DNA from: Amphibalanus amphitrite
Taxonomy: Eukaryota; Arthropoda; Thecostraca; Balanomorpha; Balanidae
Reading direction: 5' to 3'
NCBI RefSeq assembly: GCF_019059575.1
Contig: NW_024883056.1
Coordinates: 62,001-126,000 of the forward strand
DNA length: 64,000 nucleotides
Positions within the stretch are counted from its first letter, which is position 1. Each line of letters starts with the position of its first letter. The position numbers and the translations under genes are program-made. Positions 5,285 through 53,064 of the stretch are shown piece by piece. The notes under the pieces are model-generated. The model was not told the DNA's origin and made no database searches. It saw only the letters and a program-made list of their open reading frames with translations.

Positions 5285-7395
5285 TTAACCCGCGACCGCC
5301 TGGGGGGGTTCGGATCCGACCCCCTCCGTTTTTTCTTGAATAACTCATGAACCGCTCACGCTATCAACTTGAAACTTCACATATCTTCTCCCCCATTAAT
5401 TTGACGTTGTCTGTGTAATTTTTAAGAAAATTTTCCCAAAAAATTTTTGAGATATATCGATTTTAGTGATGTAACTTCATGGCGTTTTCAGTCAAAAAGT
5501 GGTAAATGTTTAAAAAATCGCCAAAAATCAAGGTTTAAAGCAAATTGCAAATTATGGAAAAGGATAGACGCAGCTCAACGAGTTCTTTAACCCTCGCCCG
5601 TATAGGGGGGGGTCGAACGGACCCCCCCCCCATGGTTTTTCGCAAATAACTCGCGTAAAAAAGCGGCCGATCGCGACGAAACTTTCAGTACCCTCGCGTT
5701 CATCAATTTTACACATACCCTGAAAATTTCATGACCCTGACCCAAATGACCTTTGACCTGTGACCTACTTTTCGAGACCATGTTTGGCCGGAATCGCGAT
5801 TCGGCGTATGTCGGCTAGCATTAGCCGCGCGTTTGCAGTCTTTTCGTGGTTTCAAGCGTTCAAACATGTGATATGATGTTGCCCCCATGCATTAGGGTGG
5901 GTGTCAAGGTCACCTGAAGGTCAGGTCAGGTCATTGACCTTTGATGACCTCGGTTCACTTTTTCGAGTTTTACATGATTCTAGACCAGTTTTTGGAGCTG
6001 AATTCGAATTTAGCAACCATATGAACATTTACGAAGTAGTTTTGGTGCCTTCGTAACATGTTACGAAGCTGTTAGAGGCGGTTGCCACCTACTACGAATA
6101 CCCTTACTGGTTGACCTGACCTGACCTGACCCGAACTGGCCTAAATGCATGAAAACATCATCTGTGATCAAAACTAACATGATATTCGTGATCAGCACCC
6201 CGAAAACCCCATAGCAGCCACACTTTACGACGTTCTAACAGGTCCCGATTTTCCCGACTTTTGGGTCATTGACCTGACCTGCAAGGTCAACCAATGACCT
6301 AGGACCTTAAAATTGGGTATCATCGGCTTCCTCTCGTCACGGGCAACACGCTCGTTTTTTCCGCGAACCTCTAGCTCGATCAGGGGCGAAACGGCAAGGG
6401 GGGGTCCAACGGACCCCCCCCCCCCCTTATACGTTCGCGGCTGGAAAAACACCAATACGGGCGAGGGTTAAAATGGCTATCTCGGATTTTCCATAAAATG
6501 CGTTTTTCACCCCTAAAAATTCAAACAACTATAAATTTTGGAAAACAGCTAATAAAATCCAAAATTTTGAAAATTTCCAAAAACCGAAATATATGTTGTA
6601 GAGCTCTATTCGAACATTAGAGGCCCCAAATTTCAACTTTCTATCTTGATTTTTGACCCCCAACTTGTAACAAATAGCTCCAACATACATAGGGCATGGT
6701 GATGTCATAAGCATTTTCGTGAATTAGAGGCACTTCTGAACATCGCATGTAAAAACAAATGGCACCACTAGATTTCTGGGACAAAGCTCGTCTAGAAAAG
6801 TGCATTTTTATGTCAAAAATAAAAAGTTGAAAAATTGACCTTTTTTCTTAGCCCTCGTTTAGTTATGTATGGTATAAACGAATTTTTATGCTTTCAATGC
6901 ACACTTATCACCAGCACAGTGACTTGGGATCACATATAACCATTACCATCGGATTCGGAGTGAAACATAAGCCATAAAACATGTGTCGCACGCCCATGTA
7001 GTAAAAAGTGAAAACCGTGACCTTTCGTGACCTGACCTGACCTTGACCCGTACTTAGTATGACCCCTATACGCACATGGTACCTTTACTAGGCCTTTGAG
7101 GTCATTTTTGGTGAGTTGGTGAGTTTCGAGCAGCAGCTATCGATTCCGCTGTCCGTAAGCCTAATCATGCAAAACCCCAGAATTTGACCTTTGACCTGAC
7201 CTTGACCCGAAAGTTGACCTCAATCTAAAAATCTTAAGAGTGCTTTGGGAAGGTCTTATAGAGACCTTTCGAATGCCGCCTCGCGGGGCTCGATACGACC
7301 ATTGGTTCTCGAGATAACATGGTCGGATCCACACCCCCCCCCCCCTCCCCCAGGCTGTCGTGGGTACGGAAATAGCCCAGGCGGTGCCGGATTAA
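5285..7395. mobile_element. Element B1, TTAA family B, with A1 nested inside
   Basis: TTAA at 5285-5288 and 7392-7395 bounds the element. The simple left end is CCCGCGACCGCCTGGG plus G-run. The compound right end reads, inward, CCCGGCACCGCCTGGG with a second GCCTGGGGG 27 bp further in. Just inside each end lies a GGTCGGATCCGACC-type palindrome with G/C runs. Without the 881-bp A1 insertion it is about 1.2 kb. The interior has AGGTCA clusters, the CATAAAACATGTGTCGCACG module (6973-6992) and no coding frame. The target TTAA is intact in D2, so integration duplicated TTAA as piggyBac transposases do. Confidence 0.8.
5587..6471. mobile_element. Element A1, TTAA family A, complete
   Basis: The body of 877 bp (5591-6467) is flanked by TTAA on both sides. 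The 13-bp inverted ends, CCCTCGCCCGTAT, are perfect. The left end is simple (TIR then G-run). The right end is compound: CGTAT recurs 26 bp inside the outer copy, followed by a G-run. The insertion site is seen empty in the second B copy, where GCCATTTTAAAGAACTCG (12957-12974) is continuous. There is no protein; the interior is rich in GGTCA repeats. Confidence 0.88.
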
Positions 7396-7470
7396 GCGCC
7401 CGAAAGATATCGGCGGTACGGGATAAAATTATTAAACCGCTCGTAGGTAGAAAAATCTTTTAAGCGACAT

Positions 7471-7895
7471 AGGCGCGGGAGCCGGGGGGGGGGGGGCAGT
7501 GGTGGGCAGCTTACCCCCCCCCCCCCAACTCTGGGTTGTTTTCTTTTTTGTTGAAAAAGCCAAGGGATGAAAAATAAGTGGCCTAAAACCGGTGAGAAAA
7601 CTAGATTGGGGGGGGGGGTACCCTAGGTTGATCTCTATTATGGTGTGCCCCCCAGTCTGAACGTAGTTCCCGCGCCCCTGGACGGCAATGTGCAGTCTCC
7701 CAACCATCACATTTGGATGATGAACGTTCGGACGCATTATACATCACCAACCCACATCATGACAAAATAAAATGAAAAAAGACGCGTGCATATCCTTCGT
7801 ATACCCCAAGACAAACCATGCCCCTTTTTCTTTTGCCATTCCCAAACAAGACCCTTTAGCTCTGCCGACGTGGGTGCTGCACCAGAAATCATATA
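7471..7895. other. G/C-run-rich stretch without gene
   Basis: Several homopolymer G and C runs of 9-14 bases (about 7486-7527 and 7609-7619) sit in otherwise ordinary sequence. They resemble inner parts of the TTAA elements, but no TTAA-bounded unit could be delimited. Confidence 0.4.
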
Positions 7896-9103
7896 TTAAC
7901 CCGCGACCTGGTGGGGGGGGCTATTTTTTGCCCCCCCCCTCCAGACTTTTCGAGATATCTCCAGAACCGCTGCGCTGATCGTCACCAACCTTTCAGTACC
8001 CTCCCGGACATCAATTTTACACATTGTGACCAAAAACTTTTCCAAAGGCTATGATAGGTTGACCGGAAATGACGTCAGAGTGACGTCATGTTCTGCCGTT
8101 TTCGACCCAAAAAAGGGTTTCGCGGGAAGAGCTGTCAGGCCTATAGCTTTGCAAATACAGAAAAATGATAAAGACATAAAAGCTGTACAATTGACAGGGC
8201 TACAAAACTGCTATCTCGGATTTTTGAAATTGTTGGATTTTGACCCCCAAAAATGAAAAAAATATTTTTTCGGATATAATAATCGAAAAATCCAAAACGT
8301 TTTTTTAATTTCGCAAAAACCAGAATATATGTGATAGTCCTTACCGCCTTCCATCCACATACCAAATTTGAGATTGATACATCTTTTTTTGGCGAAGTTA
8401 TAGCGAAAAAACTGTTCAAAATTGATGACGTCAAATTTTCAAACTCAATTTTTTGAAATTCTAGACCCCGTTGCGCAAAACAAAGACCACCATTAGACAC
8501 CCCGTGACGAGCTGCATCGAATCAATACCCATTTTATGCAAAACTATCAACTTTAAAAATTTGACCTTTTTTGGCCTGACCTTGACCTGACCTTGACCTG
8601 CACTTCACCAGAAAGTGACCTAAGCCGTACCTGATAGTCTTATAACCAACACCATTGAGTTGGAAATGAAAAATTGGCCATAAAACATGCATCACACAAC
8701 CTTAGTAAAGTTGGGCTCATGTGACCTGACCTGTGACCCTTGGTGACCTGACCTGTGACCTGACCTGGTATTGTCAGTGAACTCTAATAGCAACATATCT
8801 ACTAGGCAACTGACGCCCTATCGCTGATTCTCGATAAAATGCGTTTTCCTCGGTGTTTCAGCGCATTCCCTAGAAGACCCTTGAACGGTGAAACATTTCA
8901 TCTTTGACCTGACCTGTGACGTCATCGGTGACCCCGAGGTCAATGAAATTTGGTTTCCTTCGACAAATTTGACAGGCCTTTCGAACGCCGTTTGAATTTT
9001 GCGGATCCGTCCAGTAGTTTCGGAGATACGATGGGGGCAAAAAATAGCCCCCCCCCCCCCACCAGGTCGCGTTATAAACAGACCCCACCAGGGCGCGGGT
9101 TAA
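7896..9103. mobile_element. Element E1, TTAA family E, complete
   Basis: The 1200-bp body (7900-9099) lies between TTAA sites. TIRs are CCCGCGACCTGGTGGGG and CCCGCGCCCTGGTGGGG (16 of 17 match). The right end is compound: a second CGCGACCTGGTGGGG stands 26 bp inside. The interior carries CATAAAACATGCATCACACA (8679-8698), TGACGTCA sites at about 8070-8090 and AGGTCA tracts. No coding frame was found. It shares its right TTAA with F1. Confidence 0.82.
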
Positions 9104-10147
9104 CCCTCGCCGGACCTATTGGTTTTCTACATATTGGTACGACCCGGACCTATTGGTCCGACCCCCTCGCCGTTTCGCCCCTGGTGGAGCTAGCGCGTCG
9201 CGAAAAAAAAAAAACGAGCGTGTGCGCCGTTACGAGACGCAGAGATTGGTACCCGATTTTGGGGTCCTAGGTCAACCGGTGACAACTGAGTTCATGTCAA
9301 GTGCCCCAAGGTACGGTTCCGTTTTTGGTGCATAACTTCGCAAAAACGGCCGCAGAGCGCCGATTTCGGCAGCGTCGTGTTCGCCTTGCTCGAAGGCGCG
9401 TCGAATGATATACTTTTTGTTTGGGTCAGGTCAACTTGTGGTGTTGACCTCAGGTCAAGGTCAGGTCAGCACCCCCCGGTCACGGAGCTGGTCGAAAGAG
9501 GACATGTCGCATATCATTCGATTCGGCAGGTCTTCCTGAGTCTTCCTGGTGGCAATTTCCCAACTCGCTAGCTCAATTAAATCGGGAGTTATTGATGAAA
9601 AACACATATGACCTTGGTCCTTGATGACGTCATAAATGACGCCACGCAAGACCAACAATCATTGCAAAAGTGACGCATCTAACCTTGCAAGGAGTGCATC
9701 AAATCACGATTCTGTGTGCTTGAGATAGTTTGAGATCGTTCCCCGCGCCAGAGTAGCAGTTTTTATTTTTCCCCGTTGACGTATAATAGTGAGGTCACGA
9801 AAATGACCTGACCTCATATGACGTTAAGGAAAAATCCGAGATATACAAGTTGTGAGACTAGTAATGGATACTAGATCCTGCAAGTTTCATTTCCCTGTGA
9901 AAGCTCCTCTGGCAGTTAGGGCGTTGCGAAGTTGCGAGTGCAACATCTGAAGACCGTGCAGAGGTTCACTTATGACGTCACACAGGTCAGTGACCTGACC
10001 TGACCCGAACATGCGGTTGGTCTCAAAAGATCCGACTTGAATCAAAGGTCAGGTATGCCAAGTTTCAGCTCTCTATCGCCAGCTTGTTCGGAACAATCGC
10101 GAAAAAAATGGGGGGGGGCGGCACCCCCCTCGGCCGGCGAGGGTTAA
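9100..10147. mobile_element. Element F1, TTAA family F, complete
   Basis: The 1040-bp body (9104-10143) is flanked by TTAA. The outer ends share CCCTCGCCGG. The right end is simple (CCCTCGCCGGCCGAGGGGG); the left has the spacer form with CCTATTGGTTTTCTACATA. Inside are a CGAATGATATAC / ATATCATTCG pair (9402-9520) around a GGTCA cluster, and paired TGACGTCA-type sites. Related copies are at 35694-36729 (complete, inverted), 56151-57057, 23387-24065 and 15540-16250. Confidence 0.82.
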
Positions 10148-10183
10148 CATACGTAACGCATGGTTTTAGATGCATTAAATGGG

Positions 10184-10636: not shown

Positions 10637-11976
10637 TTAACCCTCGCCCCGTTGGGAGGGGGGGGGGCAATTTGGCCCCCCTTTCCTGAATAGCAAGAAA
10701 ACGGCTGCCCGCAGCGCCGCCAAATTTTCAGTACCTTCCCGGGCATCAATTCGACACCTTCACACCAAATTTCAAGTCTTAGGTCACCTTAGGTCAGGAG
10801 TTATTGAGGTCAAACTGAGGTCATGTTCGATCAAAAATGAGCAAAAAACATGCAATCTTGAAACGCTCACCAAATCTACAGTTACCAAGCAATTGCAAAA
10901 TTCTTTATATGGTCTAGTAGAAAAAAAGCGGTACTACAAAACTGCTATCTCGGAATTTCAAAATTTTGGGTTTTTGACCCCCCAAAATTCAAAAAATTGA
11001 TTTTGTTAAAGAAAAACTAAAGAAAATCCAGAAAATTTTCCGAATTTCGAAAAAAAAAAACAGAACATATGTGATAGTCCCTGCGCTCTTCTATATACAT
11101 ACCAAATTTAAGATCGATATCTCGTTTTTGGCCAAGTTATAGCGAAAAAACTGTTCAAAAATGATAACGTCAAATTTTCAAACTCAATTTTTAGCGATTC
11201 TAGACCACGTAGGGCAAAACAAAGCCCACCATTGAACTCCCCGTGGCAAGCTGCATCGAACCAATACCTATTTTATGCAAAATATCAACTTTTAAATTTG
11301 ACCTAATTTGACCTGACCTTGACCTGACCTTGACCTGACCTTGACCAAAACGTGGCCTAGGCTGGCCCCAAAGGCTGCCTGACTCACATAATCGCGTTTG
11401 TCATGTAAAATGGACCATAAAACATGTATCACACGACACTTTCATATTGTGACCCCCCAGTGACCTGACCTCTGTAACATGACCTGGTATCAGTGACCTC
11501 AAATAGCAAAATAAGTGTTTGAAGAACATTTCCCCATCGATGATTTTCAATGAAATGCATTTTACTCGATTTTGCAACGCATTTCTTGAAATGCCTGTGA
11601 ACAGTGAAAATTTGAACTTTGACCTGACCTGTGACGTCATCGGTTTGACCTAGGTCAACAAAATTGGGTCACAAGGTAGTCCCCTGATAGGGCTATCCAA
11701 CACCGTTTGCCGCTTGTCGCTAGGTTGCGTGATCCTCGAGATCTTAGGAGGGGCAAATTGCCCCCCCCCCCCCAACAGTGAAACGAGTGCATTAAAACAC
11801 GAGTGCAATAATCAGGAGTGAAACGAGTGCATTAAAACACGAGTGCAATAATCACTCCACGAGTGCACTAAACCCATTAACACGCGCACCGACGGCGGGC
11901 GGTTAACCGCCCCCCCCCCCCCTGAGGTTTTTCGTGAATAGCGTTGCTCGGCAGAGCCCAACGGGGCGCGGGTTAA
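10637..11976. mobile_element. Element H2, TTAA family H, with internal insertion
   Basis: TTAA at 10637-10640 and 11973-11976. The simple left end is CCCTCGCCCCGTTGGG plus G-run; the right outer end is CCCGCGCCCCGTTGGG. The inner repeat expected at the compound end is displaced by a 165-bp insertion at about 11776-11940. The interior holds the CATAAAACATGTATCACACG module (11416-11435) and a run of tandem TGACCTTGACC at 11297-11345. It is an inverted copy of H1 (30185-31360). No coding frame. Confidence 0.8.
11776..11940. repeat. K/J fragment inserted in H2
   Basis: Two 40-bp direct repeats start AGTGAAACGAGTGCATTAAA and are followed by a TTAACACGCGCACCGACGG end and a C-run. The same pieces occur inverted at 14170-14360. 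H1 shows that this block interrupts H2. Confidence 0.55.
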
Positions 11977-12047: not shown

Positions 12048-13942
12048 TTAACCCGGCACCGCCTGGGCTATTTCCGTACCCACGACAGCCTGGGGGGGGG
12101 GGGGTCGGATCCGACCCCCCCCCTGTTATCTCGAGAACCAATGGTCGTATCGAGCCCCGCGAGGCGGCATTCGAAAGGTCTCTACGAGACCTTCCCAAAG
12201 CACTCTTAAGATTTTAAGATTGAGGTCAACTTTCGGGTCAAGGTCAGGTCAAAGGTCAAATTCAGGGGTTTTGCATGATTAGGCTTACGGACAGCGGAAT
12301 CGATAGCTGCTGCTCGAAACTCACCAAAAATGACTTCAAAGGCCTAGTGAAGGTACCATGTGCGTATAGGGGTCATACTAAGTACGGGTCAAGGTCAGGT
12401 CAGGTCACGAAAGGTCACGGTTTTCAATTTCTGCTACATGGGCGTGCGACACATGTTTTATGGCTTATTTTTCACGCCGAATCCGATGGTAATGGTTAAA
12501 TGTGACCCCAAGTCACTGTGCTGGTGATAAGTGTGCATTGAAAGCATAAAAAATCGTTTATACCATACATAACTAAACGAGGGCTAAGAAAAAGTCAATT
12601 TTTCAACTTTTTATTTTTGACATAAAAATGCACTTTTCTAGACGAGCTTTGTCCCAGGAATCTAGTGGTGCCATTTGTTTTCACATGCGATGTTCAGAAG
12701 TGTCTCTAATTCACGAAAATGCTTATGACGTCACCATGTCCTATGCATGTTGGAGCTATTTTTTACAATTTGGGGGTCAAAAATCAAGATAGAAAGTTGA
12801 AATTTGGGGCCTCTAATGTTCGAATAGAGCTCTACAACATATATTCCGGTTTTTGGAAATTTTCAAAATTTTGGATTTTATTAGCTGTTTTCCAAAAAAT
12901 ATAGTTTTTTGAATTTTTAGGGGTGAAAAACGCATTTTATGGAAAATCCGAGATAGCCATTTTAAAGAACTCGTTGAGCTGCATCTTTTCATGTCCTTAA
13001 TTTGCAATTTGCTTTAAACCCTGATTTTTGGCGATTTTTAAAACATTTACCACTTTTTTACGGAGCGAGCGAAGCGAGCGTAGTCTTTCCTTAGATTAAC
13101 GGAAATTTCTGAGTATGAGCGGCCGGCCGTGCGGACGCTTTTGCGAGGCTTATATCTCAGCAACCACTTGACCGATTTACACGCGGTAATTTTTGTAGGG
13201 TAGCTTCATTCCTTCTACCAAGTATTGGACTATTCCCGATGCATGTGGGTGACCCCTTATGCACGTGCCACGTGCAAAACGAAGAGGTGTCAGTTTTGTA
13301 ATTGTTGCAATATCTCGGTAACTACTTGGCCGATTGCGCTGAAAGTTGGCATGTAGGTAGGCACCCACTAGGCACTGCATATCCATGTGCCAGACTTGGG
13401 GTGCTGCTGCACATGCGCACGTGCAGGGGTCGTTTCCAGATCTCGAGAACGGCTGGACCGATGGCGCTCAAATTTGGTACGCGGTTAGGGACCAGTTATA
13501 GTAGGGTGCCGTGCACAAGTCAGTTGGGACTTATTTTGCACGTGCGCACGTGCAGGGTGCCGCTCCCAGATCTCGAGAACGGCTGGGCCGATTGTGCTCA
13601 AATTTGGCACATCGCTAGAAACCGGTCAGTAGGGTGCCGTGCACAAGTCAGTTGGAGGTACCCCCTCGAAATTTCGCACGTGCAAGACTCACCCCCTCGC
13701 TCGCTCCGTTAGTCGCCCCAAAAGGCGTTATACTGGTACTAAAAACGCCATGTAGTTACATCACTCAAATCGATATATCTAAAAAAAAAGTTGGAATTTT
13801 TTCATAAAAATTGCACAGGAGACGTCAAATTGATGGGGGAGAAGGTATGCCAAGTTTCAAGTAGATAGCGAAAGTGGTTCATGAGTTATTCAAGAAAAAC
13901 GGAGGGGGGGTCGGATCCGACCCCCAGGCGGTCGCGGGTTAA
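12048..13942. mobile_element. Element B2, TTAA family B, inverted, with C2 nested
   Basis: TTAA at 12048-12051 and 13939-13942. It is the reverse orientation of B1 and keeps both ends: compound on the left (CCCGGCACCGCCTGGG plus inner GCCTGGGGG) and simple on the right. It lacks the A insertion, giving the empty A1 site near 12960. It carries instead the 679-bp element C2. The CGTGCGACACATGTTTTATG module is at 12443-12462. No coding frame. Confidence 0.8.
13061..13739. mobile_element. Element C2, CACGTG-palindrome element, precise insertion in B2
   Basis: B1 continues through this point (CCACTTTTTGACTGAAAACG on the strand matching B2), so C2 can be delimited. It begins CGGAGCGAGCGAAGCGAGCG and ends AAAAGGCGTTATACTGGTAC. 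An inverted ACGGAGCGAGCGA / TCGCTCGCTCCGT pair lies at 13060 and about 13697. CACGTGCGCACGTGCA palindromes and AACGGCTGGGCCGATT units repeat inside. No protein. Confidence 0.65.
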
Positions 13943-17412: not shown

Positions 17413-18718
17413 GTATGTAGGGGAGAGTGGGGCAAAGCGGCCACCCTAACGCTTCTCACGATGCCAACGCTTGATTTTTAAACTTGGGAAGATTCTTTCT
17501 ATACCAATGTGATCCCTATTAACCCTATTCCTGGCGGGCTCCGCCGGGACAAGAAACTGGCGGGGGGGGGGGGGCCGATTCGGCCCCCCCTGAGATCTCG
17601 AGAACGAAGCAAGATAGCGACAAGCGGTAAACGACATCGGATACGCACGGCCAAGATCTACAATTTTTACTAAGGTCATTTTCAGGTCAGGTCAAAGATG
17701 ACGTCACAGGGGTCGAAAAAGTCAAAATGGCGGCACTAGATATGGAGAGAGTTTTTCTCGAATAACTTTCGAATTAGTCAAGATAGGAACAAACTAAGGG
17801 CATCATCGTGATCCTCTCGTCAATCCACATCGAATGATATATATGTTGACCTCGAAAGGTCAAGGTCAAAGGTTGACCTCAGGTCACGTGACCTCGAGGT
17901 CATCATGTATATCATTCGATGCGTCTTGACGAGCTGAACACAATGAGACCATCCACGCGTCTGTATCTTGTTCCTGTACGGAGTTATTGGCCAAAAACCT
18001 TTGGTGACCTTTGATGACGTCACATGACCTCACAGCTGCCCAACAGCAAAACAGACCTCAAGGTAGTGAAGGTTGATCGTATATGAAGTCATGTATGGTA
18101 TATGGGGCCATTCCGACCCGTTTTAGTGGTAAAAACAGGGAGTTGATTTTTCCCCCCATTGACTTATAATGGGGAGGTCGCGAAATTGACCTGACCTTAG
18201 GTCACCGATATCAAAATTCCGAGATATACAAATTGCACATACTGGTACCCTAACTAAACCCTGAAGAGAAGAAATTGATCGGTCAAAAACTCTAGCTCTG
18301 GCGTGATTGCAAACTTTTCTGAGGTAGGGTCACCAAACCGCCTCTGGTGACCTGACCTGAGGTCAGATCAACTCAAAATTTTCAGACATGTTGCGTAGAA
18401 GCCTTTTAGGAAAAGTCAGAAAATTTGAGCTTCCTAGCTCAACGCGTTTGGGAGATATAACCAAAAAACCTCAGGGGGGGGCTCCTGAGGCCCCCCCCCC
18501 GCCAGGAATAGGGTTAAGTTGCCTTTTATTTCAACTTCGTTTTATTTCCAAAGGCGTTCACATATAGGAGATATTGACAAAACTTTAAACCTATGCGTAT
18601 TGGCCACTTTGCCCCATACCCTGGGGCAAAGCGGCCACCGGCGTCTTCTCAAGTCTCGATATGAGAAACAAAATAATTGCCTCATGTACGACTATAAGGG
18701 TATTTGATGGTGACAAGG
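17413..18718. repeat. GGGGCAAAG repeat M1, interrupted by L1
   Basis: It starts GTAGGGGAGAGTGGGGCAAA and continues after L1 with TTTCCAAAGGCGTTCACATA and CACTTTGCCCCATACCC. A collinear, uninterrupted copy lies at 55270-55600. No gene is seen. Confidence 0.6.
17519..18517. mobile_element. Element L1, TTAA family L, complete
   Basis: The 991-bp body (17523-18513) lies between TTAA copies. TIRs of 16 bp, CCCTATTCCTGGCGGG, are perfect. The left end is compound, with CTGGCGGGG again 26 bp inside; the right end is simple. Inside are the palindrome GGCCGATTCGGCC in G/C runs, the CGAATGATAT / ATATCATTCG pair (17831-17918), TGACGTCA and AGGTCA sites. The empty site is at 55377-55390 in M2. No coding frame. 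Confidence 0.87.
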
Positions 18719-18719
18719 T

Positions 18720-19103
18720 TTAACCCTATTACTGGTGGGCTCTCTGGACTACGTTAACTGGTGGAGGGGGCCGATTCGGCCCCCCTTGATATCTTGCAAA
18801 CAAAATGTCCGATCTTAATGGGACGAACGCCATTCGATTGCTCTCATCGTGAGCTTTCAGATTGATTCTTTGAAATGATTCTTGAAATGCCTGTGAACGG
18901 TGAAAATCCGACCTTTGACCTGACCTGTGACGTCATCGGTTTGACCTAGGCCAATGAAAGTTGGTCACAAGGTAGTTCCCGGGTGGGGCTATCGAACGCC
19001 GTTTGAATCGGCCGGTAAATTTCCGAGATCTTAGGGGGGCCGAAACGACCCCCCCCCCTACGGGTGGCAGGGTCCGCCGATAGCCCTACGGGGCGCGGGT
19101 TAA
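18720..19103. mobile_element. Chimeric TTAA element S with two different compound ends
   Basis: The left end is family L-like (CCCTATTACTGGTGGG, inner ACTGGTGG at +26). The right end is family H-like (CCCGCGCCCCGTAGGG, inner CCCGTAGGG at +28). Both ends are compound, unlike every other element here. At 376 bp between TTAA sites it is the shortest. The interior matches family H (ACCTGTGACGTCATCGG). Confidence 0.65.
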
Positions 19104-23386: not shown

Positions 23387-24065
23387 TTAACCCTGGCCGG
23401 ACCGATTGGTTTTCTATATTGACCGGGGAGGGTTAGTACAACTCCCTCGCCGTTTCGCCTCTAATTGAGCTGGAGCCTCGCGGAAAAAATAAGCTTGTGT
23501 GCCGTTGTAAGACGCAAAAATTAGGTACTACCCGATTTTAAGGTCTTAGGTCAGCCAGTGACCTCTTAGGTCAGGTGAGTGCCACAAGGCACGGGCTCGG
23601 TTTTAGGATAATTACTTTGCCAAAAATGGTCGCACTGCCGCGATTTTGGCATCATCGTGTTTGTCTAGCTCAGGCGCGTTGAATGCTATAGGTACTTGGT
23701 GTTCGGGTGAAGTCAACTTAAGGTGTTAACCTCGGGTCAAGGTCAGGTCGGAGCCCCTCAGGTCACGAAAATGGTTGAAGGAGGTCATATTGCATATCAT
23801 TCGATTCGGTAGGTCTTCCTGAGTCCAATGGTGGCTTTCCCGACTCTCTAGCTCCATCTGATCAGGAGTTATTGACGAAAAACTTATATAGCCTTAGTGA
23901 CGTCATAAATGACGTCACGCAAAGTCAACAATGCTAAAGTCAAGCACTGGACCTTGCAAGGAGTGCATGAAACCATTCCCGGTGCCCGAATAGCAGCTCC
24001 CAATTTCCCTTGTTGACTTAAAGTGGTGCTAGATCCTGTATTATACTCAATTATGACGACATAAC
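23387..24065. mobile_element. Family F copy, left end only, diverged
   Basis: It starts TTAACCCTGGCCGGACCGAT with the TTTTCTATATTGACCGG spacer, then family F order through GGTACTACCCGATTTTAAGG, the ATATCATTCGATTCGG half and TGACGTCATAAATGACGTCA. It ends without a right TIR. Confidence 0.65.
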
Positions 24066-26432: not shown

Positions 26433-26972
26433 AGCGCACCCAAAAAGGCAGAAATATGCGCATGCGATATCCTATACTGTGAAAAAAGGTGCACCATTTT
26501 TGAACGTCGCCGACAAATTGTAATTACTAAAATTACCCTGAGCTCAGGCAGATGTATGGTAGAAAATCCCCCAAGTGAAATACACTACGGCGGAAATAAA
26601 ATACCCTACGGCGGAGCTCGGTTGCAATTTGTAAATACGCATTCGGGGCCGAGTTCCTCTCTCGGACGCCTCAGTGGCAGCTATGTGCGGCCCCCGCCGA
26701 AGTTAGTTGGTAGCACTGCTGCTCCACGGCGTACATTTCCTACCAGCCCATAGGGTTTACATGTTAAATGGCCTGTTTTCGGCGAGCGATATCTCGGTCA
26801 ACCTTTGAAGGAATCAATGGTTCTTAGTCTCAAATGATAGATCGATGAATTTTCTTTCGACAATTCCTCTACCATTTTTCACGAAACCCAGCCGATCTTC
26901 TACGGCGTACAGGGTAAAGATTTCTCTGCACGCCAGCACCCGCGATCCGGCTCTCCGATCGTCGGCGCGCGG
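26433..26972. other. Unassigned stretch
   Basis: No gene was recognised. CTACGGCGGA occurs twice at about 26584-26617, and TCTACGGCGTACAGGGTAAAG is near 26900. It could belong to the unit carrying the tRNA-like sequence that follows. Confidence 0.3.
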
Positions 26973-27044
26973 TCCTCGGTAGCGCAGTCGGTAGCGTATC
27001 GGGCTACGGATCCGAGGGTCGTGAGTTCGAATCCTGGGAGCGCC
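26973..27044 (+). tRNA. tRNA-Arg(ACG)-like sequence, degenerate; tRNA pseudogene or SINE head
   Basis: An A box (TAGCGCAGTCGGTAGCG) and a near B box (AGTTCGAATCC) are correctly spaced. The anticodon arm folds as TCGGG-CTACGGA-TCCGA, with anticodon ACG at 27006-27008. The acceptor strands (TCCTCGG and GAGCGCC) and the T stem pair poorly, so it is unlikely to be a working tRNA. Such sequence is common at the head of tRNA-derived SINEs. Confidence 0.5.
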
Positions 27045-27318
27045 GCGTGATTTCGGCTAGAATTGAATGATGTAGATTCTTGAATGTTTGCATAATCAAT
27101 TATTAATAGCTAATTGAATGTATCTGCCCTCTAATCGGCCCCTAAAACCTGTTATTTAAGAAATTTAATAAATGAATGTCACGTGCGCGTCACGACTGCC
27201 GACCATAAGCGCTACCATATTCTAGTTAGAACTAAGTTTTTGCTGGTTCCGACCATATAGTAGGTTTTCTAGTAGTTGTACTAGAAATTCCTACCAAAGT
27301 TCGTCCTACCCTTCACTC

Positions 27319-30184: not shown

Positions 30185-31360
30185 TTAACCCGCGCCCCGT
30201 TGGGCTCTGCCGAGCAACGCGCCCGGTTGGGGGGGGCCATTTTGGCCCCCCCCTAAGATCTCGAGAACCACGCAACATAGCGACAAGCGGTAAACGGCGT
30301 TGGATAGCCCCAACGGGGAACTACCTTGTGACCCAATTTTATTGACCTAGGTCAAACCGATGACGTCACAGGTCAGGTCAAAGGTCCAATTTTCACCGTT
30401 TACAGGCACTTCAAGAAATGCGTTGTAAAATCGAGTAAAATGCATTTCATTGAAAATCATCGATGGGGAAATGTTCTTCAAACACATATTTTTCTATTTG
30501 AGGTCACTGATACCAGGTCAGGTCACAGAGGTCAGGTCACGGGGGGTCACAATATGAAAGTGTCGTGTGATACATGTTTTATGGTCCATTTTACATAACA
30601 AATGCGATTATATGGGTCAGGCAGCCTTTGAGGCCAGCTTAGATCACGTTTTGGTCAAGGTCAGGTCAAGGTCAGGTCAAGGTCAGGTCAAATTAGGTCA
30701 AATTTCAAAGTTAATATTTTTGCATAAAATGGGTATCGAATCGATGCAGCTCGTCACGGGGAATTCAATGGTGGTCTTTGTTTTGCCGTACGTGGTCTAG
30801 AATTGCTAAAAATTGAGTTCAAAAATTTGACGTCCTCATTTTTGAACAGTTTTTTCGCTATAACTTGGCCAAAAAACGAGATATCGATCTGAAATTTGGT
30901 ATGTATATAGAAGAGCGCTGGGACTATCACATATATTCCGGTTTTTTCGAAATTCGGAAAAATTTTGGATTTTTTCAAAGTTTTTCTAAAAAAATCAATT
31001 TTTTGAATTTTTTTTGGTCAAAAACCAAAAATTTTGAAAATCCGAGATAGCAGTTTTGTAGCGCCGCTTTTTGTCTACTAGACCATATAAAGAACTTTGA
31101 AATTGCTTGATAACTGTAGATTTGGTGAGCGTTTCAAGATTGCATGTTTTTTGCTCATTTTTGCTCGAACATGACCTCAGTTTGACCTCAATAACTCCTG
31201 ACCTAAGGTGACCTAAGACTTGAAATTTGGTGTGAAGGTGTCAAATTGATGCCCGGGAAGGTACTGAAAATTTGGCGGCGCTGCGCGCCGCCGTTTTCTT
31301 GCTATTCAGGAAAAACCACAGGGGGGGCCAAAATGGCCCCCCCAACGGGGCGAGGGTTAA
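30185..31360. mobile_element. Element H1, TTAA family H, complete
   Basis: The 1168-bp body (30189-31356) lies between TTAA sites. The left end is compound: CCCGCGCCCCGTTGGG with CGCGCCCGGTTGGGG 27 bp inside. The right end is simple: CCCTCGCCCCGTTGGG. The palindrome GGCCATTTTGGCC lies in G/C runs at one end and GGCCAAAATGGCC at the other. CGTGTGATACATGTTTTATG is at 30564-30583, with a TCAAGGTCAGG triple at 30657-30689. Inserted in the Q satellite. Confidence 0.85.
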
Positions 31361-33362
31361 AGTGAAGCAGCCGTTTATAGAAAGTGATGATCCCGCAACT
31401 CAATGTGATAGTGCCGCCCCTAAATCTGTTAGTAGCCCCACTCAATGTAATGGTGCCGCCCTTCTAAGCATCTGTGGAGCCCCTCAATGTGATGATACCG
31501 CCCCTCAAGAAGATGATGCCGCCCCTTTCAGTATCGGTGGCGCCCCTCAATGTGATGGTGCCGCCCTCAAAGTGCCGTTGGCGCCCCTGAATGTGATGGT
31601 GCTGCCCGCCAACGAGTCGGTGGCGCCCCTCAAAATGATGCTGCCGCCCCGTATAGTGTCAGTGACGCCCTTCGAAGTGTCGGAGGAACCCACCAATATA
31701 ATGGTGCCGCCCCTCAAGGTATCCACATAGCCCCTCATTGTGATGGAGCCGCCCCTCAAGCAGATGATGCCGCCCCTCAAGAAGATGATGCCGCCCCTGA
31801 ATGTGATGGTGCTGCCCGCCAACGAGTCGGTGGCGCCCCTCAAAATGATGCTGCCGCCCCTTAAAGTGTTGGCGCCGCCCCTTATAGTGTCAGTGACGCC
31901 CTTCGAAGTGTCGGAGGAACCCACCAATATAATGGTGCCGCCCCTCTAGGTATCCACATAGCCCCTTATTGTGATGGAGCCGCCCCTCAAGCAGATGATG
32001 CCGCCCCTCAAGAAGATGATGCCGCCCCTGAATGTGATGGTGCTGCCCGCCAACGAGTCGGTGGCGCCCCTCAAAATGATGCTGCCGCCCCTTAAAGTGT
32101 TGGCGCCGCCCCTTATAGTGTCAGTGACGCCCTTCAAAGTGTCGGAGGAACCCACCAATATAATGGTGCCGCCCCTCTAGGTATCCACATAGCCCCTCAT
32201 TGTGATGGAGCCGCCCCTCAAGCAGATGATGCCGCCACTCAAGAAGATGATGCCGCCCTGAATGTGATGGTGCTGCCCGCCAACGAGTCGGTGGCGCCCC
32301 TCAAAATGATGCTGCCGCCCCTTAAAGTGTTAGTGCCGCCCCTTATAGTGTCAGTGACGCTGTTCGAAGTATCAGAGGAGCGCACCAATATAATGGTGCC
32401 GCCCCTCTAGGTATCCACATAGCCCCTCATTGTGATGGAGCTGCCCCTCAAGCAGATGATGCCGCCCCTCAAGAAGATGATGCCGCCCCTTTCAGTATCG
32501 GTGGCGCCCCTCAATGTGATGGTGCCTCCCTCAAAGTGTCAGTGGCGCCCCTAAATGTGATGGTGTCTCCGTCGGTGGCGCCCCTCAAAATGATGCTGCC
32601 GCCTCTAAAAGTGCTGGTGCCGCCCCTTACAGTGTCAGTGGCGCCCTTCAAAATTTTGGAGGAACTCATCAATACAATGTTGCCGCCCTCCAACTTTCTG
32701 TAGCGCCCCTCCATATACATAATGGTGCCGCTTCTCAAACCATCCGTGGCGCCCCTCAAAGTGATGGTGCCGCCCCTTACAGTGTCGGTGGTACTGGTGT
32801 CTCCTCAAAGGTCAACTCTGTTGTCCCGAGCTGTCGTACAAAACTTGAGGCTCCGGCGGCACTGTGAGACACATAACATTCACATCATACACGTGCGCAT
32901 CTGGCGTCGTTGAACGACAAATATAAATTATAGCACAGCGCCCATCGCACAAAAGTCAATTGCACAACATAGATTCTATTCTGTTCTCGTGTTTCAGTGA
33001 AGGTGCCGCCTCTCAAAGAAATGCTGGTGTCCCTCGAAGTGTCGGAGGCGCTCCTCAATGTCATGTTGCCGCCCCTCAAACCATCCGTAACGCCCCTCCA
33101 CGTCATGGTGCCGCCCCCAATGTGCTCACGGCGCCCTTAAATGTGATAGTAACGCCGGTCAAAGTGCTCCTGGCAGTGTCGGTGGCGCCCCTTACCTATA
33201 GTGTCGGTGGCGCCCCGAACAGTATCGGTGGTGCCTCTCAAAGTGATGATGTCACCCTCAAACAAACGGTGGCGCCCTTCGAAGTATCGGAGTCCCTAAA
33301 TATCATACCTATTGCCGTCCATTAACGATCTGTAGCGCCCCTCCATATGATGGAGCCGCCCC
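31361..33362 (+). repeat. Q satellite: GCCGCCCCT-type units with a 231-bp higher-order repeat
   Basis: Basic units of about 21-33 bp share GCCGCCCCTCAA and GGTGGCGCCCCT. A 231-bp higher-order block is repeated (same phase at 31740 and 31971, then about 32200), and units decay outward. Long Pro/Met-rich frames on both strands are by-products of the period. The array resumes at 34280-34648 and 37770-37850 on the other sides of inserted elements. Confidence 0.85.
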
Positions 33363-34279
33363 TTAACCCTCGCCCGCACATGGGGGGGGGGGGGGGTGGT
33401 TGCCACCCCCACCCCCCCAGGTAGTCTTTCTGCTCTGCACTCGACATTTTAGAGCTAGAAGGCTGATTTTTCGTATAGCTGCTCCTCTATCCTTTCTTGA
33501 TGTTCACTGAAAATTTCAAGTTTCTGTGACTTTTGGTTTCGGAGATATGACCTTGTTTTTCAGGTCATGTCATGACCCAAATGGCCAATTCTGAACATCT
33601 TGCGTTTGCTATGGGCCTTGTGAGCTTTTGACACCTTGATTTCGGCCTTTTTTGCCAGTCTTACCTCCCACCTATCATGGAACATGTTGTTCGACGATGT
33701 ACAGGTGTCAAGGTCAGGGTCAAGGTCAACCTAGGTCATCTAAGATAATTACGTTTTAGGCAAGCTAAATTTACTTTTTGTGAAGTTTTTTGACTGCATT
33801 TCTGGTAAAAGCTTATCAGATCATGATTTCATGTAATATGGACACATAAACAATCGGTGTACACATCAGTATACACACAGCCACACACAGACATACAAAC
33901 ACATATAAATGACCTTGACCTAGCTTGACCTGAAATGACCTCAGCAACAAAAATCTGGTCGGGTAGTGTGACAGAGAGGTTCTAGCTGCCTTGGCACCAG
34001 AAAACGGCATCGTCATCGGAATATGCTAAGCAGCGCACTTGATATCCAACGGTGACCCAAAACAGCAACATTTTTTAGTTTGACCTGACCTGGAAGGTCA
34101 ACGACTGACCTGAGAAGGTAAAACTGGGTATCATTGGATTCGTCTCTTCCCAAAGAATCTTTTTGGTCTTTACCGCTAAGCTCTATCTCCAACAGGAACG
34201 AAATGGCGCGGGGGGTGGCAACCCCCCCCCCCCATGTGCGTTCTAGGATGGGAAAATGGCATGTGCGGGCGAGGGTTAA
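33363..34279. mobile_element. Element G, TTAA family G, complete, inside Q satellite
   Basis: The body is 909 bp (33367-34275). TIRs of 16 bp, CCCTCGCCCGCACATG, are perfect. The left end is simple. The right end is compound, with CGCACATGGGGG at +27. A GGTGGTTGCCACC-like hairpin sits in G/C runs. Satellite units continue on both sides. The interior has GGTCA sites and a CACACAGCC/GACATACAAACAC stretch; no coding frame. Confidence 0.87.
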
Positions 34280-35693: not shown

Positions 35694-36729
35694 TTAACCC
35701 TCGCCGGCCGAGGGGGGGCGGGTGCCGCCCCCCCCCCCCCATAGGGTTTTTCGCGATAGTTCCGAACGCGCTGGCGATAGAGAGCTGAAACTTGGGATAT
35801 CTGACCTTTGATTCAAGCCGGATCTTTTGACACCAACCGCATTTTTGGGTCAGGTCAGGTCACTGATCTATGACGTCATAAGTGAACCTCTGCACGGTCT
35901 TCAGATGTCGCAACTTCGCAACGCCCTCACTGCCGGAGGAGATGTCACAGGGAAATGAAACTTGCAGGATCTAGTATCCATTATGAGTCTCACAGCTTGT
36001 ATATCTCGGATTTTTCCTAAAGGTCATATGAGGTCAGGTCATTTTCGTGACCTCACCATTATAAGTCAATGGGGAAAAATGAAAACAGTGCTATTCTGGC
36101 GCCTGGAACGATCTCCAACTATCTCAAACACACAGAATCGTGATTTGATGCACTCCTAGCAAGGTTGGATGCGTCATTTTTGCAATGTTGACCTTGCGTG
36201 ACGTCATTTATGACGTCATCAAGGTCATATTAGTTTTTCGTCAATAACTCCCGATCAAATTGAGCTAGCGAGTCGGGAAAGCCACCAATGGACTCAGGAA
36301 GACCTGCCGAGTCGAATGATATGCGACATGACCTCTTTCGACCAACTTCGTAACCTGGGGGTGCTGACCTGACCTTGACCTGAGGTCAAAACCCTAAGTT
36401 GACCTGACCCGAACAAAAAGTATATCATTCGACGCGCCTGAGCAAGGCGAACACGATGCTGCCAAAATCGCGGCTCTGCGGCCGTTTTTGCGAAGTTATT
36501 CACCAAAAACTGAACCGTACTTTGAGGCACTTGACCTGACCTCAGAGGTCACCGGTTGACCTAGGACCTTAAACTCGGGTACCAATCTCTGCGTCTCGTA
36601 ACGGCGCACACGCTCGTTTTTCCGCGACGCGCTAGCTCCACCAGGGGCGAAACGGCGAGGGGGTTGTACCCTCCCCCCCCCCTTCGGCCGGCGCGTATGT
36701 AGAAAACCAATAGGTCCGGCGAGGGTTAA
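35694..36729. mobile_element. Element F2, TTAA family F, complete, inverted
   Basis: The 1028-bp body (35698-36725) lies between TTAA sites. The simple left end is CCCTCGCCGGCCGAGGGGG. The right end is compound: CCCTCGCCGGACCTATTGG, spacer, then CGCCGGCCG at about +28. The order of internal modules matches F1 in reverse. Flanks (CAATTTTCCG on one side, GTGTGTCAT on the other) match one continuous stretch of N2 near 44683. Confidence 0.85.
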
Positions 36730-38110: not shown

Positions 38111-38750
38111 ACAACTTTTTCTCGCCATGTACCAACTATATGAAATGTCGAGAGACTCCAATGGCCGTGATGGAATTCGTGCCAGAAGATCTTCGCAGTT
38201 CCGCCTTCCTTGAAGTTTATGGCGGCTAGCCTCAATTGATGTCTGGCACGAACACATCAACCGGATTTTCATGCTGCTTGACAGGTAAAAAGACTGCAGC
38301 TTTGCATGACAGGTACGATCCACATAACCCTTGTGAATTACCTATTGTCTCTGCATTGAATTTCAAATAGTTGTGATCTGATATGTGAGGGCTGCATATT
38401 GCACACTGTGGTTGGTACGCCTGCCTATAGTCTGGCATCACGGGGATCACTCGCGGGACTGCGCCAATTGCGGACGTTTTGAAGCCCGGGACTGGCACTC
38501 AACGATGAAGACTTCGAGACTGGCGCTCAAAGGCCGACAGTTTGAGACTACACTCAGGGACTAATACTTGAGGAACTAGCACTCGGTGATAAACACTGAC
38601 GGGGCTGCTACCTATGAGGCGACACTGTGCAGTCGGCTGGCGGAGTGCGCTGGCGGCGTTTGAGTGCCTACACCTCTGCCCCGACGCCAATCGGTGATCG
38701 CTGTCACCGGCGCTGTCGGTCCGTCGGGGACTGGTTCGGCCCGGTATCGT
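38111..38750. other. Unassigned stretch before GC-rich minisatellite
   Basis: Ordinary composition rising to GC-rich after 38630. Short frames lack family features. No promoter or splice pattern could be relied on. Confidence 0.3.
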
Positions 38751-39350
38751 GCCGCGGGGAGTGCCCTCCCGCCCGGCGCCGTGCCGCGGGGAGTGCCCTC
38801 CCGCCTGGCGTCGTGCCGCGGGGAGTGTCCTCCCGCCTGGCGCCGTGCCGCGGGGAGTGTCCTCCCGGCGGGCGCCGTGCCGCGGGAAGTGCCCTCCCGC
38901 CCGGCGCCGTGCCGCGGGGAGTGCCCTCCCGCCCGGCGCCGTGCCGCGGGGAGTGCCCTCCCGCCCGGCGCCGTGCCGCGGGGAGTGCCCTCCCGCCTGG
39001 CGCTGTGCCGCGGGGAGTGTCCTCCCGCCTGGCGCCGTGCCGCGGGGAGTGTCCTCCCGGCTGGCGCCGTGCCGCGGGGAGTGCCCTCCCGCCTGGCGCT
39101 GTGCCGCGGCGAGTGTCCTCCCGCCTGGCGCCGTGCCGCGGGGAGTGTCCTCCCGGCTGGCGCCGTGCCGCGGGGAGTGTCCTCCCGGCTGGCGCCGTGC
39201 CGCGGGGAGTGTCCTCCCGGCTGGCGCCGTGCCGCGGGGAGCGTCCTCCCGGCTGGCGCCGTGCCGCGGGGAGTGCCCTCCCGCCTGGCGCCGTGCCGCG
39301 GGCAGTTTCCTCCCGCCCGGCGCCGTGCCGCGGGGAGTGCCCTCCCGCTT
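38751..39350 (+). repeat. GC-rich 32-bp minisatellite, about 19 copies
   Basis: The unit is GTGCCGCGGGGAGTGCCCTC followed by CCGCCCGGCGCC, with C/T and G/T variants. As 32 is not a multiple of 3, three units code 32 residues and all three frames read through on both strands. The resulting Pro/Arg/Gly-rich frames of 250-380 codons are not evidence of a protein. Confidence 0.88.
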
Positions 39351-41760: not shown

Positions 41761-42207
41761 TTCCGCTTCGCTGCACAAGGCATGCGTCACAAATTGATAT
41801 CCGATTTGATATCCGTTAGGCACAATACCTGAGCAGTAAGCGTGTTTCGGATTAGCTCGATAAGCTCGGCTATATTGAGCTCCTCGACCCAGCCGGACCT
41901 GCTGAGACGAGCGGCTCAGTTCCGGACGGCCCCGGCGGGGGAGGCAGGCACGTGGGAACCGGTCGGCACGTGCCGGGTCCGCTCCCAGTTCCCCACACCG
42001 ATCCAGCGCACCAATCCTCGGTCTGATCGGCTTCTGCTGGCGATGCCGGAGCCGTGACGCACACACACACACACACGCGCGCGCGTCAGGTCAGAGGCGG
42101 ACAGGTGGCTACGAGCAGCGGTCGGTGCGCGCGCGGCGGCCGTAAAACGGAGCGGCGCCGGCCGGGCGGCGCCAGTGTGGAGACGGCGCTGCGCTGGGCC
42201 GGTCGGG
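41761..42207. promoter_or_regulatory. Lysozyme upstream region, GC-rich
   Basis: Composition shifts to GC-rich from about 41870. A (CA)n/(CG)n tract lies at 42058-42086. CGCCAGTGTGGAG at about 42170, just before the start codon, resembles CGACCAGTGTGCG upstream of the secreted-protein exon at 24.2 kb. It may be an initiator-like element. This is an inference from two cases. Confidence 0.35.
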
Positions 42208-48712: not shown

Positions 48713-49449
48713 TTAACCCGGCAGTTACTGGGGTATTTCGCCACCCACCGTTTGCTGGGGGGGGGGGGGCCTTAAACGCCCCCAGCCGATAACTCGAGAA
48801 CCAATATAGGCCCAGGGAAACGCATGAGAAGGCAAACGAAAGAACACGACGAGACGCTTCAGATGAGTACTTTAAAGTTGCATTTTGAGGTCACAGGTCG
48901 GGTCAAGGTCAGGTCAAACACCTGAAATCGGGCTTTCAGTAGCATGGACTTCAGGACTTCGCAATGGGCGGCTCTCGTCATAAACTCTGTCATAACGGCG
49001 CACAATCCATCATATAAGGCCTACAAGAGTGTCAGCTCCATGTAGGGGTCAGTCAAGCATAGGTCAGGGCCAAGGTCAGGTCAACCGGGTAGGCACATAT
49101 CCCCGAAAATCAAAACTGATATTCGCAGCCTGTGACACATGTTTTATGGGTAATTTGGGGCGTAGAACACGATGGCGACATTCATTTTATCATTTGTGTA
49201 CGTGTTTGCCTCAAAAAGTTCAATTTAAGAAATGCATGTGTCATGGTCGTGAAGAAGTCATAGAAATTGCCAGGATTCAGTTCAAGATTTTGGAAAATGC
49301 GGAACAATAATCAATAATCGAAGATAGTCATTAATTGTTCATGGTATTGGCAGTCTGATGGCGTTTACGGCATGTCTGTATGACTATTCTGTGATTTTAT
49401 ATGATTGGGGCGTTTAACGCCCCCCCCCCCCCAGCAACTCGTGGGTTAA
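48713..49449. mobile_element. Element U, TTAA family U, complete
   Basis: The 729-bp body (48717-49445) lies between TTAA sites. Compound left end: CCCGGCAGTTACTGGGG with GTTTGCTGGGG at +27. Simple right end: CCCACGAGTTGCTGGGG. The module TGTGACACATGTTTTATG is at 49131-49148, with AGGTCAAGGTCAGGTCA-type sites. No coding frame. Confidence 0.78.
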
Positions 49450-51172: not shown

Positions 51173-51654
51173 AATTTTAACAAAATCGTACGAGGTCCTT
51201 TTGTGATTTGTTGAAGCGCACCAGTTTTTTGTTTAAAGAACTGTTCCAATTATTCCTGAAAATATGCCTTTCGATTTCTGCTTTCTTTTTGCAAAATGAA
51301 AAATGCGAAACGCCAATGGTTTTTGAAATTAATTTAACTGGTAATACATTCAGAATTTTCATAACCTAGGATGATATTATTATGTTGATATTCGGCAAAA
51401 TCGTAAATTAACTTTGATTTGAAGTTTCGTAGAGAACCTCCGATTTCACGCGATTCAAATATAGTGATATTTGAGGTATCTGGTGGGTTTTGATGTAAAA
51501 GTAGTATAAAAAGTAGGTGAAATGCCAATTTCAACATTAAATTGCTCGTGACTCAGACCGAATATCGAAAATCTGACTTCAGTTTCGTAAATTGGAGTGC
51601 TGATTTTACCAAACATCAAATGTTGTATTTTAGCTGACAATTTACCTTTAATGC
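51173..51654. other. AT-rich unassigned stretch
   Basis: No gene or repeat recognised. Confidence 0.3.
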
Positions 51655-51867
51655 AAAATATCAACTTTGAAATTTGACCTAATTTGACCTGAACTTGACC
51701 TGACCCTCACCAGAACGTAACCTAAGCTGGCCCCAAAGGCTGCCTGACCCACATAATCGCATTTGTCATGTAAAATGGACCACCAAACATGTATCGCACG
51801 ACACTTTCATATTTTGACCCATAGTGACCTGACCTCTGTGACGGCCAAATTCAATCACCCAGAAGTG
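51655..51867. mobile_element. Family H internal fragment
   Basis: Matches H2 at 11279-11476 (GGCCCCAAAGGCTGCCTGAC, CATAATCGCATTTGTCATGT). No ends. V inserted at its right edge. Confidence 0.65.
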
Positions 51868-53064
51868 TTAACCCGCGCCCCGCTGGGCTATTCAGCCATA
51901 CGCGCCCTGCTGGGTGGGGGGGGGGGGGGGGCAGATTCTGCCCCCTGTCTAACTTCCGAACCAATGGTCGTAGAAAGACGGGGAAAACGGCAATCGAAAG
52001 CTCTCAACAAGGCGGATCTTAAGAGCCCAATTTTTTTTGCTTAAGTAGGTCAGAGGTCAGGTCAAGGTCAGGTCAAGGGTACAAGATGCAAGTTTCTACA
52101 GTATCGGCCTTGCACCGTAGTTGCCGAAGAATGGACTGAGACTGATGGCCCAAAACGTGTTCTTAGACTACCAAGACAATATTAGTTGCATACAATGTCA
52201 TTCAAAGGTCAAGGTCAAGGTCAGGTCAGGTCATGTCAGGTCACCAAAAACAAAATATAGAAAAGGGCATGTGCGACACATGTTTTATGGGTCATTTTAC
52301 TCATAGAATTCAATAGGCACACTCAATAAGTGATATGGACCACCTCTGGATGAATTTCAGGTCGAGGTCAGGTCAAGGTCAGGTCAAGTGAGGTCAAATT
52401 TTGAAGTTGGTTGTTAAGGCCTAAAAAGGTGTCTATCTGATGCAGTTTTTCACGGCGAATCGAATGGTGCTATTTTTGTTTCCGTGCGAGGTCTAGAACT
52501 TCCAAAAAAAATCATTTTTCAAAATTTTTGTGTGTCGTGACGTCATAAAATTTTGAATAACTTCCACATTTTTGAACCGATTCTTCTAAAAATTGGTATG
52601 TAGGTGCACATAGACCACTTCTTTGACATATATTCCGGTTTTTTCGATACACTCAAAATTTTGGATTTTATAAATATTTTCCCAAAAAAGTCAGTTTTTT
52701 AGAAAAAAAAATTGGGCCAAAATCCAAAATTTTCAAAAAACCGAGATAGCCATTTGATAGACAAAGTAGAATCACGTATAACCTTTTTTGTTACGTCTTG
52801 ATTCCTTTAAAAATGAAGATGTTAGCGGCGTTTGAAATTTTGCCATTTTTGAGGCGAAAATGGCGAACATGACGTCACTAAAACGTCAATTTCTTAAAAA
52901 AATTCCGACGGATTTCGCTCAAATTTTCAGGGAACGTCTCAAATTGATGTATGATAAGGTACTGAAAGTTTGACGTCGCTGGCGTAACGCGTTTAGAAGT
53001 TATTGGCGAAAAACGGGAGGGGGGCAGATTCTGCCCCCCCCCCCCCCAGCGGGGCGCGGGTTAA
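51868..53064. mobile_element. Element V, TTAA family V, complete
   Basis: The 1189-bp body (51872-53060) lies between TTAA sites. TIRs of 16 bp, CCCGCGCCCCGCTGGG, are perfect. The left end is compound, with CGCGCCCTGCTGGG at +27; the right end is simple. The palindrome GGCAGATTCTGCC occurs in G/C runs at both ends. Internal modules: GTGCGACACATGTTTTATGG (52271-52290), CATATATTCCGGTTTTTTCG (52628 onward), CCGAGATAGCCATTTGATAG. Dense GGTCA repeats. No coding frame. Confidence 0.87.

Follow-up and report, generated by a model that had tools for sequence, protein, structure and literature searches.

The stretch of DNA considered here (the window) comprises 64,000 nt of the genome of the barnacle Amphibalanus amphitrite (contig NW_024883056.1, positions 62,001 to 126,000) and contains a series of TTAA-bounded elements, each with one simple and one complex end, which were found at the coordinates named by an earlier reading of the sequence alone (the sequence-only reading). 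TTAA lies at both termini of these elements and is followed by CCC in nearly all cases. The simple end of an intact element consists of a terminal inverted repeat (TIR) followed by a G-run, a family core and a C-run. The complex end consists of the TIR, a spacer and a second, partial copy of the TIR, followed again by G-run, core and C-run. We compared this layout with that of piggyBac, a mobile gene that has become a common tool in the laboratory, and searched the barnacle genome for coding relatives of the window elements.

Two elements of family A lie in the window, both probably non-autonomous piggyBac elements. The first (5285–7395, forward strand, simple end on the left and complex end on the right, shift 27 as defined below) has a damaged palindrome at its complex end, reads TCC after TTAA at 7395, and is interrupted by a probable non-autonomous piggyBac element of family B (5587–6471, forward strand, shift 26). 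The second (12048–13942, reverse strand, complex end on the left, shift 27) carries the core CGGATCCG at both ends and contains an unrelated insert; it holds an empty site with a single TTAA where the first copy holds the family B element. Comparison of this filled and empty pair, which represents one insertion, revealed an exact TTAA target duplication.

The other non-autonomous elements show the same organization. On the forward strand, 7896–9103 (shift 26) has a complex end that is identical to that of the coding element L040, described below, over the first 18 bp only, and 33363–34279 (CGCACATG, shift 27) is family G of the sequence-only reading. On the reverse strand lie 17519–18517 (TTAACCCTATTCCTGGCGGG, complex end on the left, palindrome cores differing between the ends, shift 26), 30185–31360 (complex end on the left, core CCATTTTGG at both ends, palindromes centred on bp 24.5 and 52.5, the positions also found in moth piggyBac, shift 27), 48713–49449 (family V, cores CGTTAAACG and CCTTAAACG, shift 27) and 51868–53064 (cores CAGAATCTG and CAGATTCTG, shift 27). 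The CGCCGGCCGAGG family is represented by an intact copy at 35694–36729 (forward strand, shift 28), by 9100–10147 (reverse strand), in which the complex end is rearranged and the best shift is 34–35, and by the complex-end part of a copy at 56151–57057 (reverse strand, shift 28) that was apparently cut by a long terminal repeat (LTR) retroelement. A simple and a complex end of the CGCCCCGTTGGG family span 10637–11976 on the forward strand, with the complex end at 11976 rearranged (best shift 42), and the complex end at 23387 is degraded (best shift 25). Finally, 18720–19103, to which no strand was assigned, consists of two facing complex ends of different families and represents a truncated or fused remnant.

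We define the shift as the displacement at which the simple end aligns best with the inner portion of the complex end; it was 26–28 bp in 10 of the 11 window elements with both ends. Five more complex ends were compared with the simple end of their own family, and three of these gave values in the same range (28 at 56151, 28 at 19103 and 26 at 18720). The shift was therefore 26–28 bp in 13 of the 16 measured complex ends, a count that leaves out other end-like sites such as 40894 and 56063. To give the G-run little weight, the comparison between families used 11 TIR bases only, in nine window families and five families from elsewhere in the genome. The best shift fell at 26–28 in all 14 families, with a mean of 8.9 of 11 matches, whilst ends of different families paired as a control gave a mean of 6.2 of 11 and fell at 26–28 in 70 of 182 pairings. 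The inner copy therefore follows the sequence of its own family. The sequence-only reading, which had proposed a common plan with an own-family inner copy at an offset of 26–28 bp, is thus borne out in the 13 window ends and in every family; its offsets of 27 for families G and V were correct, these being families that could be matched by name from a quoted sequence.

Self-matching within the complex end is a weaker test than the simple-to-complex comparison. It gave a single best score at 26–28 in 12 of 14 ends, with only a tie at 11976 and 56151. The match was significant at p<0.01 for seven ends and at p=0.036 for two, and was not significant alone for five (6471, 36729, 48713, 11976 and 56151). 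All 14 complex ends, one per family, read CCC after TTAA, in agreement with the terminal motif CC[C/T]. It was also observed that the complex-end spacer is often T-rich at bp 17–22 after TTAA, with T at bp 20, 21 and 22 in 11, 10 and 9 of the 14 families.

The G-run, family core and C-run together form a palindromic internal repeat at both ends, in which 6–9 of 9 positions are paired; this feature was absent from the sequence-only reading. Palindrome centres lie at bp 23–34.5 in simple ends and at bp 52.5–64.5 in complex ends, with the damaged 7395 and 9100 ends left out. Within an element the two cores mostly resemble each other, and most families differ in theirs: the summed similarity over 15 pairs, with cores chosen by eye and two pairs (48713 and L022) belonging to one family, was 115 against a null mean of 67, and none of 5000 shuffles reached 115.

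The end motif TTAACCCKCGMCC has 51,396 matches in the 808-Mb assembly, against 57 for the reversed control. The CGCCGGCCGAGG family (CGCCGGCCGAGG at the simple end, CGCCGGACCTA at the complex end) accounts for 8,065 end matches, with none for the reversed control. Among 100 listed places of this family, 32 pairs were formed, all of which joined one simple and one complex end; 30 of the 32 were 1,026–1,046 bp long, and the others 1,385 and 5,626 bp, the longest of them a nested insertion. The sequence-only reading had suggested that the offset be measured across the genome, and when 100 listed complex ends were compared in each of two families, the offset did not vary in either: it was 28 in the CGCCGGCCGAGG family and 27 in the family of the 30185 element. 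The patterns, which need both the outer and the inner motif intact and tolerate gaps of 3–33 bases, matched 3,052 and 537 times in all, respectively, and the reversed controls not at all. A constant offset inside one family is the expectation of descent, and it is the comparison between families that carries the information.

The closest known system is piggyBac (IFP2) of the moth Trichoplusia ni. When its end sequences (taken from PMC7846023) were run through the script used for the barnacle ends, the right end was found to repeat AAAGATAATCAT at offset 27 with 12 matching bases, the simple-to-complex shift was 27/28, and the palindrome centres lay at 24.5 and 52.5. Chen et al. (2020, PMC7351741) describe a 17-bp insertion and a duplication in the moth right end, note that bp 34–63 of the right end nearly equal bp 7–35 of the left end, identify the 19-bp palindromic repeat as the site bound by the transposase cysteine-rich domain (CRD), and call the asymmetry 'puzzling' and enigmatic. 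They report that with the native enzyme an asymmetric end pair alone both excises and integrates in cells, and propose a second, inner dimer bound mainly via the right-end internal repeat. According to PMC10140906, the 19-bp internal repeat is separated from the 5′ TIR by 3 bp and from the 3′ TIR by 31 bp, and a survey cited in PMC8086355 classes moth piggyBac with elements whose ends are complex and hold multiple internal repeats. The barnacle layout is thus the moth layout with different letters. Both systems share the TTAA target, the CCC tips, the TIR with a palindromic internal repeat, and an extra partial TIR copy at offset 27 that occurs at one end only, that end lying downstream of the gene. 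They differ in that the barnacle end letters diverge beyond the TTAACCC tip (plus T and a few bases in some families). The moth palindrome is TGCGTAAAATTGACGCA, whereas that of the barnacle elements is of G-run/core/C-run form; the barnacle palindromes do not carry the letters of the moth 19-bp repeat, and what is shared there is geometry only. We therefore treat the palindrome letters as family-specific and not as defining membership of the T. ni-type group. Moth piggyBac is 2.47 kb long, in contrast to barnacle coding copies of 4.0–4.7 kb and non-coding window copies. The sequence-only reading knew of no description of such a set: the layout itself had been described for T. ni piggyBac, but we found no description of the gene-less barnacle set in the openly licensed literature.

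At least 116 matches to the PF13843 (DDE_Tnp_1_7) transposase profile were found in the genome. None of the 116 listed matches lies on the contig that bears the window (C1559), but the label 'protein-less' given to the group by the sequence-only reading does not hold, as coding members exist elsewhere in the genome. Among 32 PF13843 places of which the surroundings were examined, four show the end design of the window elements, 13 are flanked by pairs of other ends, and the remaining 15 have no matching end pair in the stretch examined. The four elements, L031, L033, L034 (3.97 kb) and L040 (4.72 kb), each have a shift of 27 and encode, between such ends, a PF13843 transposase with the DDD motifs retained. 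The complex end is found 3′ of the gene in each of these four elements, which is also the polarity of moth piggyBac. The proposal that a piggyBac-type transposase acts on the window elements is supported by these coding elements of the same genome and by the moth geometry; the matching ends for which the sequence-only reading had proposed a search were found in design, although no TIR identical to that of a window family was found among them.

The transposases of these elements are related to the moth enzyme. Among proteins of solved structure, the L033 protein matches moth piggyBac best (6x67, 2.2e-78, 267 bits), with piggyBat at 108 bits. A maximum-likelihood tree of 31 rows, from which the fragments L013 and L016 were left out, places the moth enzyme with L026, L031, L033, L034, L036 and L040 on one side of a branch (100/100) and 24 other barnacle piggyBacs on the opposite side. 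The cysteine/histidine pattern of the moth CRD is present in five of the 32 barnacle proteins (L026, L033, L034, L036 and L040), three of which belong to the four coding elements that share the end design; the 26 barnacle proteins outside the moth-type group all lack it.

Coding and non-coding elements are linked by subterminal DNA and by short copies. L040 shares subterminal sequence with window positions 17800–18030 (70% over 243 columns, 1.7e-23), L033 with 34163–34279 (74% over 121 columns, 1.6e-10), and coding elements also share such DNA with 56418–56518; some further matches are short or repetitive. A 20-base end pattern of the L033 family matched 3,304 times (control, 0). The 100 listed places formed 45 pairs, of which 40 were 929–958 bp long and the rest 1,039, 1,187, 1,295, 2,712 and 4,169 bp; the copies of about 950 bp are probably gene-less, judging from a length too short for a gene of this size. 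The complex end of L040 occurs 284 times, and at least three PF13843 matches have the 205.3-bit score of L040 (on C33, C257 and C431). We also observed near the simple end of L033 (362–779) three stretches spaced about 188 bp apart; each of them matches window elements at one common set of positions (near 9969, 35847 and 57002).

Several candidates for coding elements were rejected. A 5.6-kb end pair on contig C1 (L029), first taken as a coding element, is a nested insertion without a transposase-sized frame. L020, at first sight a coding member bounded by family A ends, is another piggyBac, with TTAACCCATTAG ends, inserted in a family A copy. The V-family ends between which L026 lies belong to neighbours, because they point outwards. 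Each window-like end seen at L035, L036, L039 and L041 is single, and its position excludes it as a boundary of the transposase frame.

The membership of the coding elements in the T. ni-type group of piggyBac is well supported. Since the window elements share both end design and subterminal sequence with these coding elements, we assign them to the same group, and consider it very probable that they are non-autonomous members, similar to miniature inverted-repeat transposable elements (MITEs), presumably mobilized by the transposase of their coding relatives in A. amphitrite. The proposed mechanism begins with a left-end-like end, in which the TIR is followed directly by the palindrome, and a right-end-like end, in which the TIR, a spacer and a partial TIR precede a palindrome about 27 bp deeper. 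Transposase supplied in trans would cut and paste the element at TTAA. By analogy with the moth system, a catalytic dimer would grip both tips whilst CRD dimers bind the G-run palindromes, and a second, inner dimer would use the inner TIR copy and palindrome of the complex end, forming a two-dimer synapse. The offset would then be set by the protein assembly. Presumably the choice of TIR and palindrome letters is specific to the transposase of each lineage, so that these sequences would drift together while the spacing stays.

The alternative explanation that deserves most attention is that the offset of 26–28 bp was merely inherited from one ancestor and has no function, the families having come to differ by drift. 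The subterminal DNA shared by window families and coding elements does indicate relatedness, and an identical offset inside a family is what descent predicts. However, 14 families have changed TIR and inner copy together, and most of them the core as well, with a spacing that stays within 2 bp, whereas free drift should change the number of bases as well. The moth element also has this spacing and polarity, with a transposase that is only about 30% identical. According to PMC7351741, about half of the activity is lost when 5 bp are inserted in the moth element or when the inner copy is scrambled. We therefore regard inheritance without function as unlikely, although it is the most credible of the rival explanations.

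A different origin for the elements themselves, in another superfamily that duplicates TTAA, would reduce the likeness to piggyBac to target and asymmetry. Kolobok and Sola3 also duplicate TTAA, such that TTAA targeting by itself does not single out piggyBac, and a different-looking TTAA-bounded repeat starting TTAAAGGGAC surrounds the piggyBac at L014. Nevertheless, the ends of the window elements start TTAACCC, fitting the piggyBac terminal motif as given in PMC2872659, and the coding relatives that share the design carry PF13843 transposases belonging to the moth-type clade, making such an origin very improbable. It is less credible still that the offset is a by-product of the G-run and of low-complexity sequence. 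G-runs of variable length do give loose matches at several shifts, and five of the 14 self-match tests were not significant alone, but all 14 families still peak at 26–28 when only 11 TIR bases are used, and the reversed controls for the patterns of the CGCCGGCCGAGG and 30185 families gave no matches; we consider this explanation close to negligible.

A number of observations weigh against assigning the window elements to the T. ni-type group with a functional spacing. Three of the 16 window complex ends break the rule, and the cores at the two ends match poorly in three of 15 pairs (35694–36729, 17519–18517 and L023). Among the coding elements searched, none has the exact TIR of any window family, the nearest being L040, and the short copies of the L033 family are known as positions and a 20-base end pattern alone. 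The moth row of the tree is a long branch whose placement was flagged as unsure by the tree program, and the L031 open frame lacks the moth CRD pattern. Complete ends are known for two transposase lineages only (L031/L033/L034 and L040); for L026 and L036, no ends were found within the stretches examined around them, and if both are counted as being without the design, the end label needs two changes on the tree. It should also be noted that the letters of the barnacle palindromes differ from the moth CRD site, so that CRD binding in the barnacle is putative.

Other known systems share parts of this organization. The piggyBac MITEs of coral (CMITE, PMC2872659) are likewise non-coding TTAA elements, with one family that has the TIRs of a coding piggyBac and several TIR families with related interiors; in contrast to the barnacle elements, no inner TIR copy is described for them, and the word 'asymmetric' is absent, in the available text of that paper. 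The piggyBat element of Myotis lucifugus belongs to the same superfamily and shares unlike ends, CRD dimers on palindromes and a transposase tetramer, but differs in having a right end without a palindrome and a CRD of another fold; it also matches L033 far less well than moth piggyBac does. The other piggyBacs of A. amphitrite, with TTAACCCATTAG and similar ends (L009–L011, L013–L015, L017, L019–L022, L025 and L028), have PF13843 matches and TTAACCC tips in common with the elements studied here. No inner TIR copy was found at 26–28 at either end in nine of nine tested, and no G-run palindromes were found within the 95 bp examined. In the tree, from which L013 is omitted, they fall outside the moth-type clade, and none has the moth CRD pattern. 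At L014 (3570–6714), a piggyBac with TTAACCCATTAG ends (3676–6327) lies inside a different TTAA end pair (TTAAAGGGACACTCCCACC / TTAAAGGGACCCTCCCACC), and these outer ends possibly belong to an element of another TTAA superfamily. The table row for A. amphitrite in PMC10813416 gives the values 5 and 3, which we take as piggyBac types and intact types, with lengths of 1,965–4,732 and 2,708–4,732 bp and MITEs excluded; coding forms like L040 may be among them.

The window also contains features other than TTAA elements. The LTR retroelement beside the cut CGCCGGCCGAGG copy extends from 57058 to about 63440, with a 60-bp exact terminal direct repeat at 57058 and 63357. It has a gag-like frame with a zinc knuckle and a 1203-codon frame in which the integrase precedes reverse transcriptase and RNase H. 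This integrase-first order is unusual for Ty3-like elements and reminiscent of the Gmr1 type. An open frame at 42175–42732 matches Destabilase (PF05497), the invertebrate-type lysozyme, and is probably a host gene or exon. A long array of diverged GCCGCCCCTCAA-like units (31384–32790; periods 21, 42 and 231) lies a few hundred bases before the 33363–34279 element, a GC-rich tandem array of 32-bp units (about 19 copies) that is open in several frames lies at 38748–39348, and ARAGORN called a tRNA-Arg (acg) gene at 26971–27046.

The end layout was already known from T. ni piggyBac; what is new is the barnacle set of members, which is mainly of interest as comparative evidence for selection on a lopsided spacing. 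A genome in which many families hold the spacing constant as their letters change is an independent line of evolutionary evidence for a functional spacing, and the abundance of the TTAACCCKCGMCC motif illustrates the bearing of such elements on the large repeat load of the genome. At about even chances, the barnacle represents a natural mutagenesis series of the piggyBac synapse, in which at least 14 end families have had tip repeat, inner copy and, mostly, CRD palindrome rewritten together, with the displacement of 26–28 bp and the polarity of the coding elements held fixed. If so, the asymmetric two-dimer assembly proposed for moth piggyBac would be the ancestral working state of the group, and CRD specificity would have shifted to new targets many times (here, G-run palindromes), yielding piggyBac systems with separate end specificities. 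The barnacle families would then offer many natural pairs of ends and transposases, and a natural test of the proposed two-dimer synapse.

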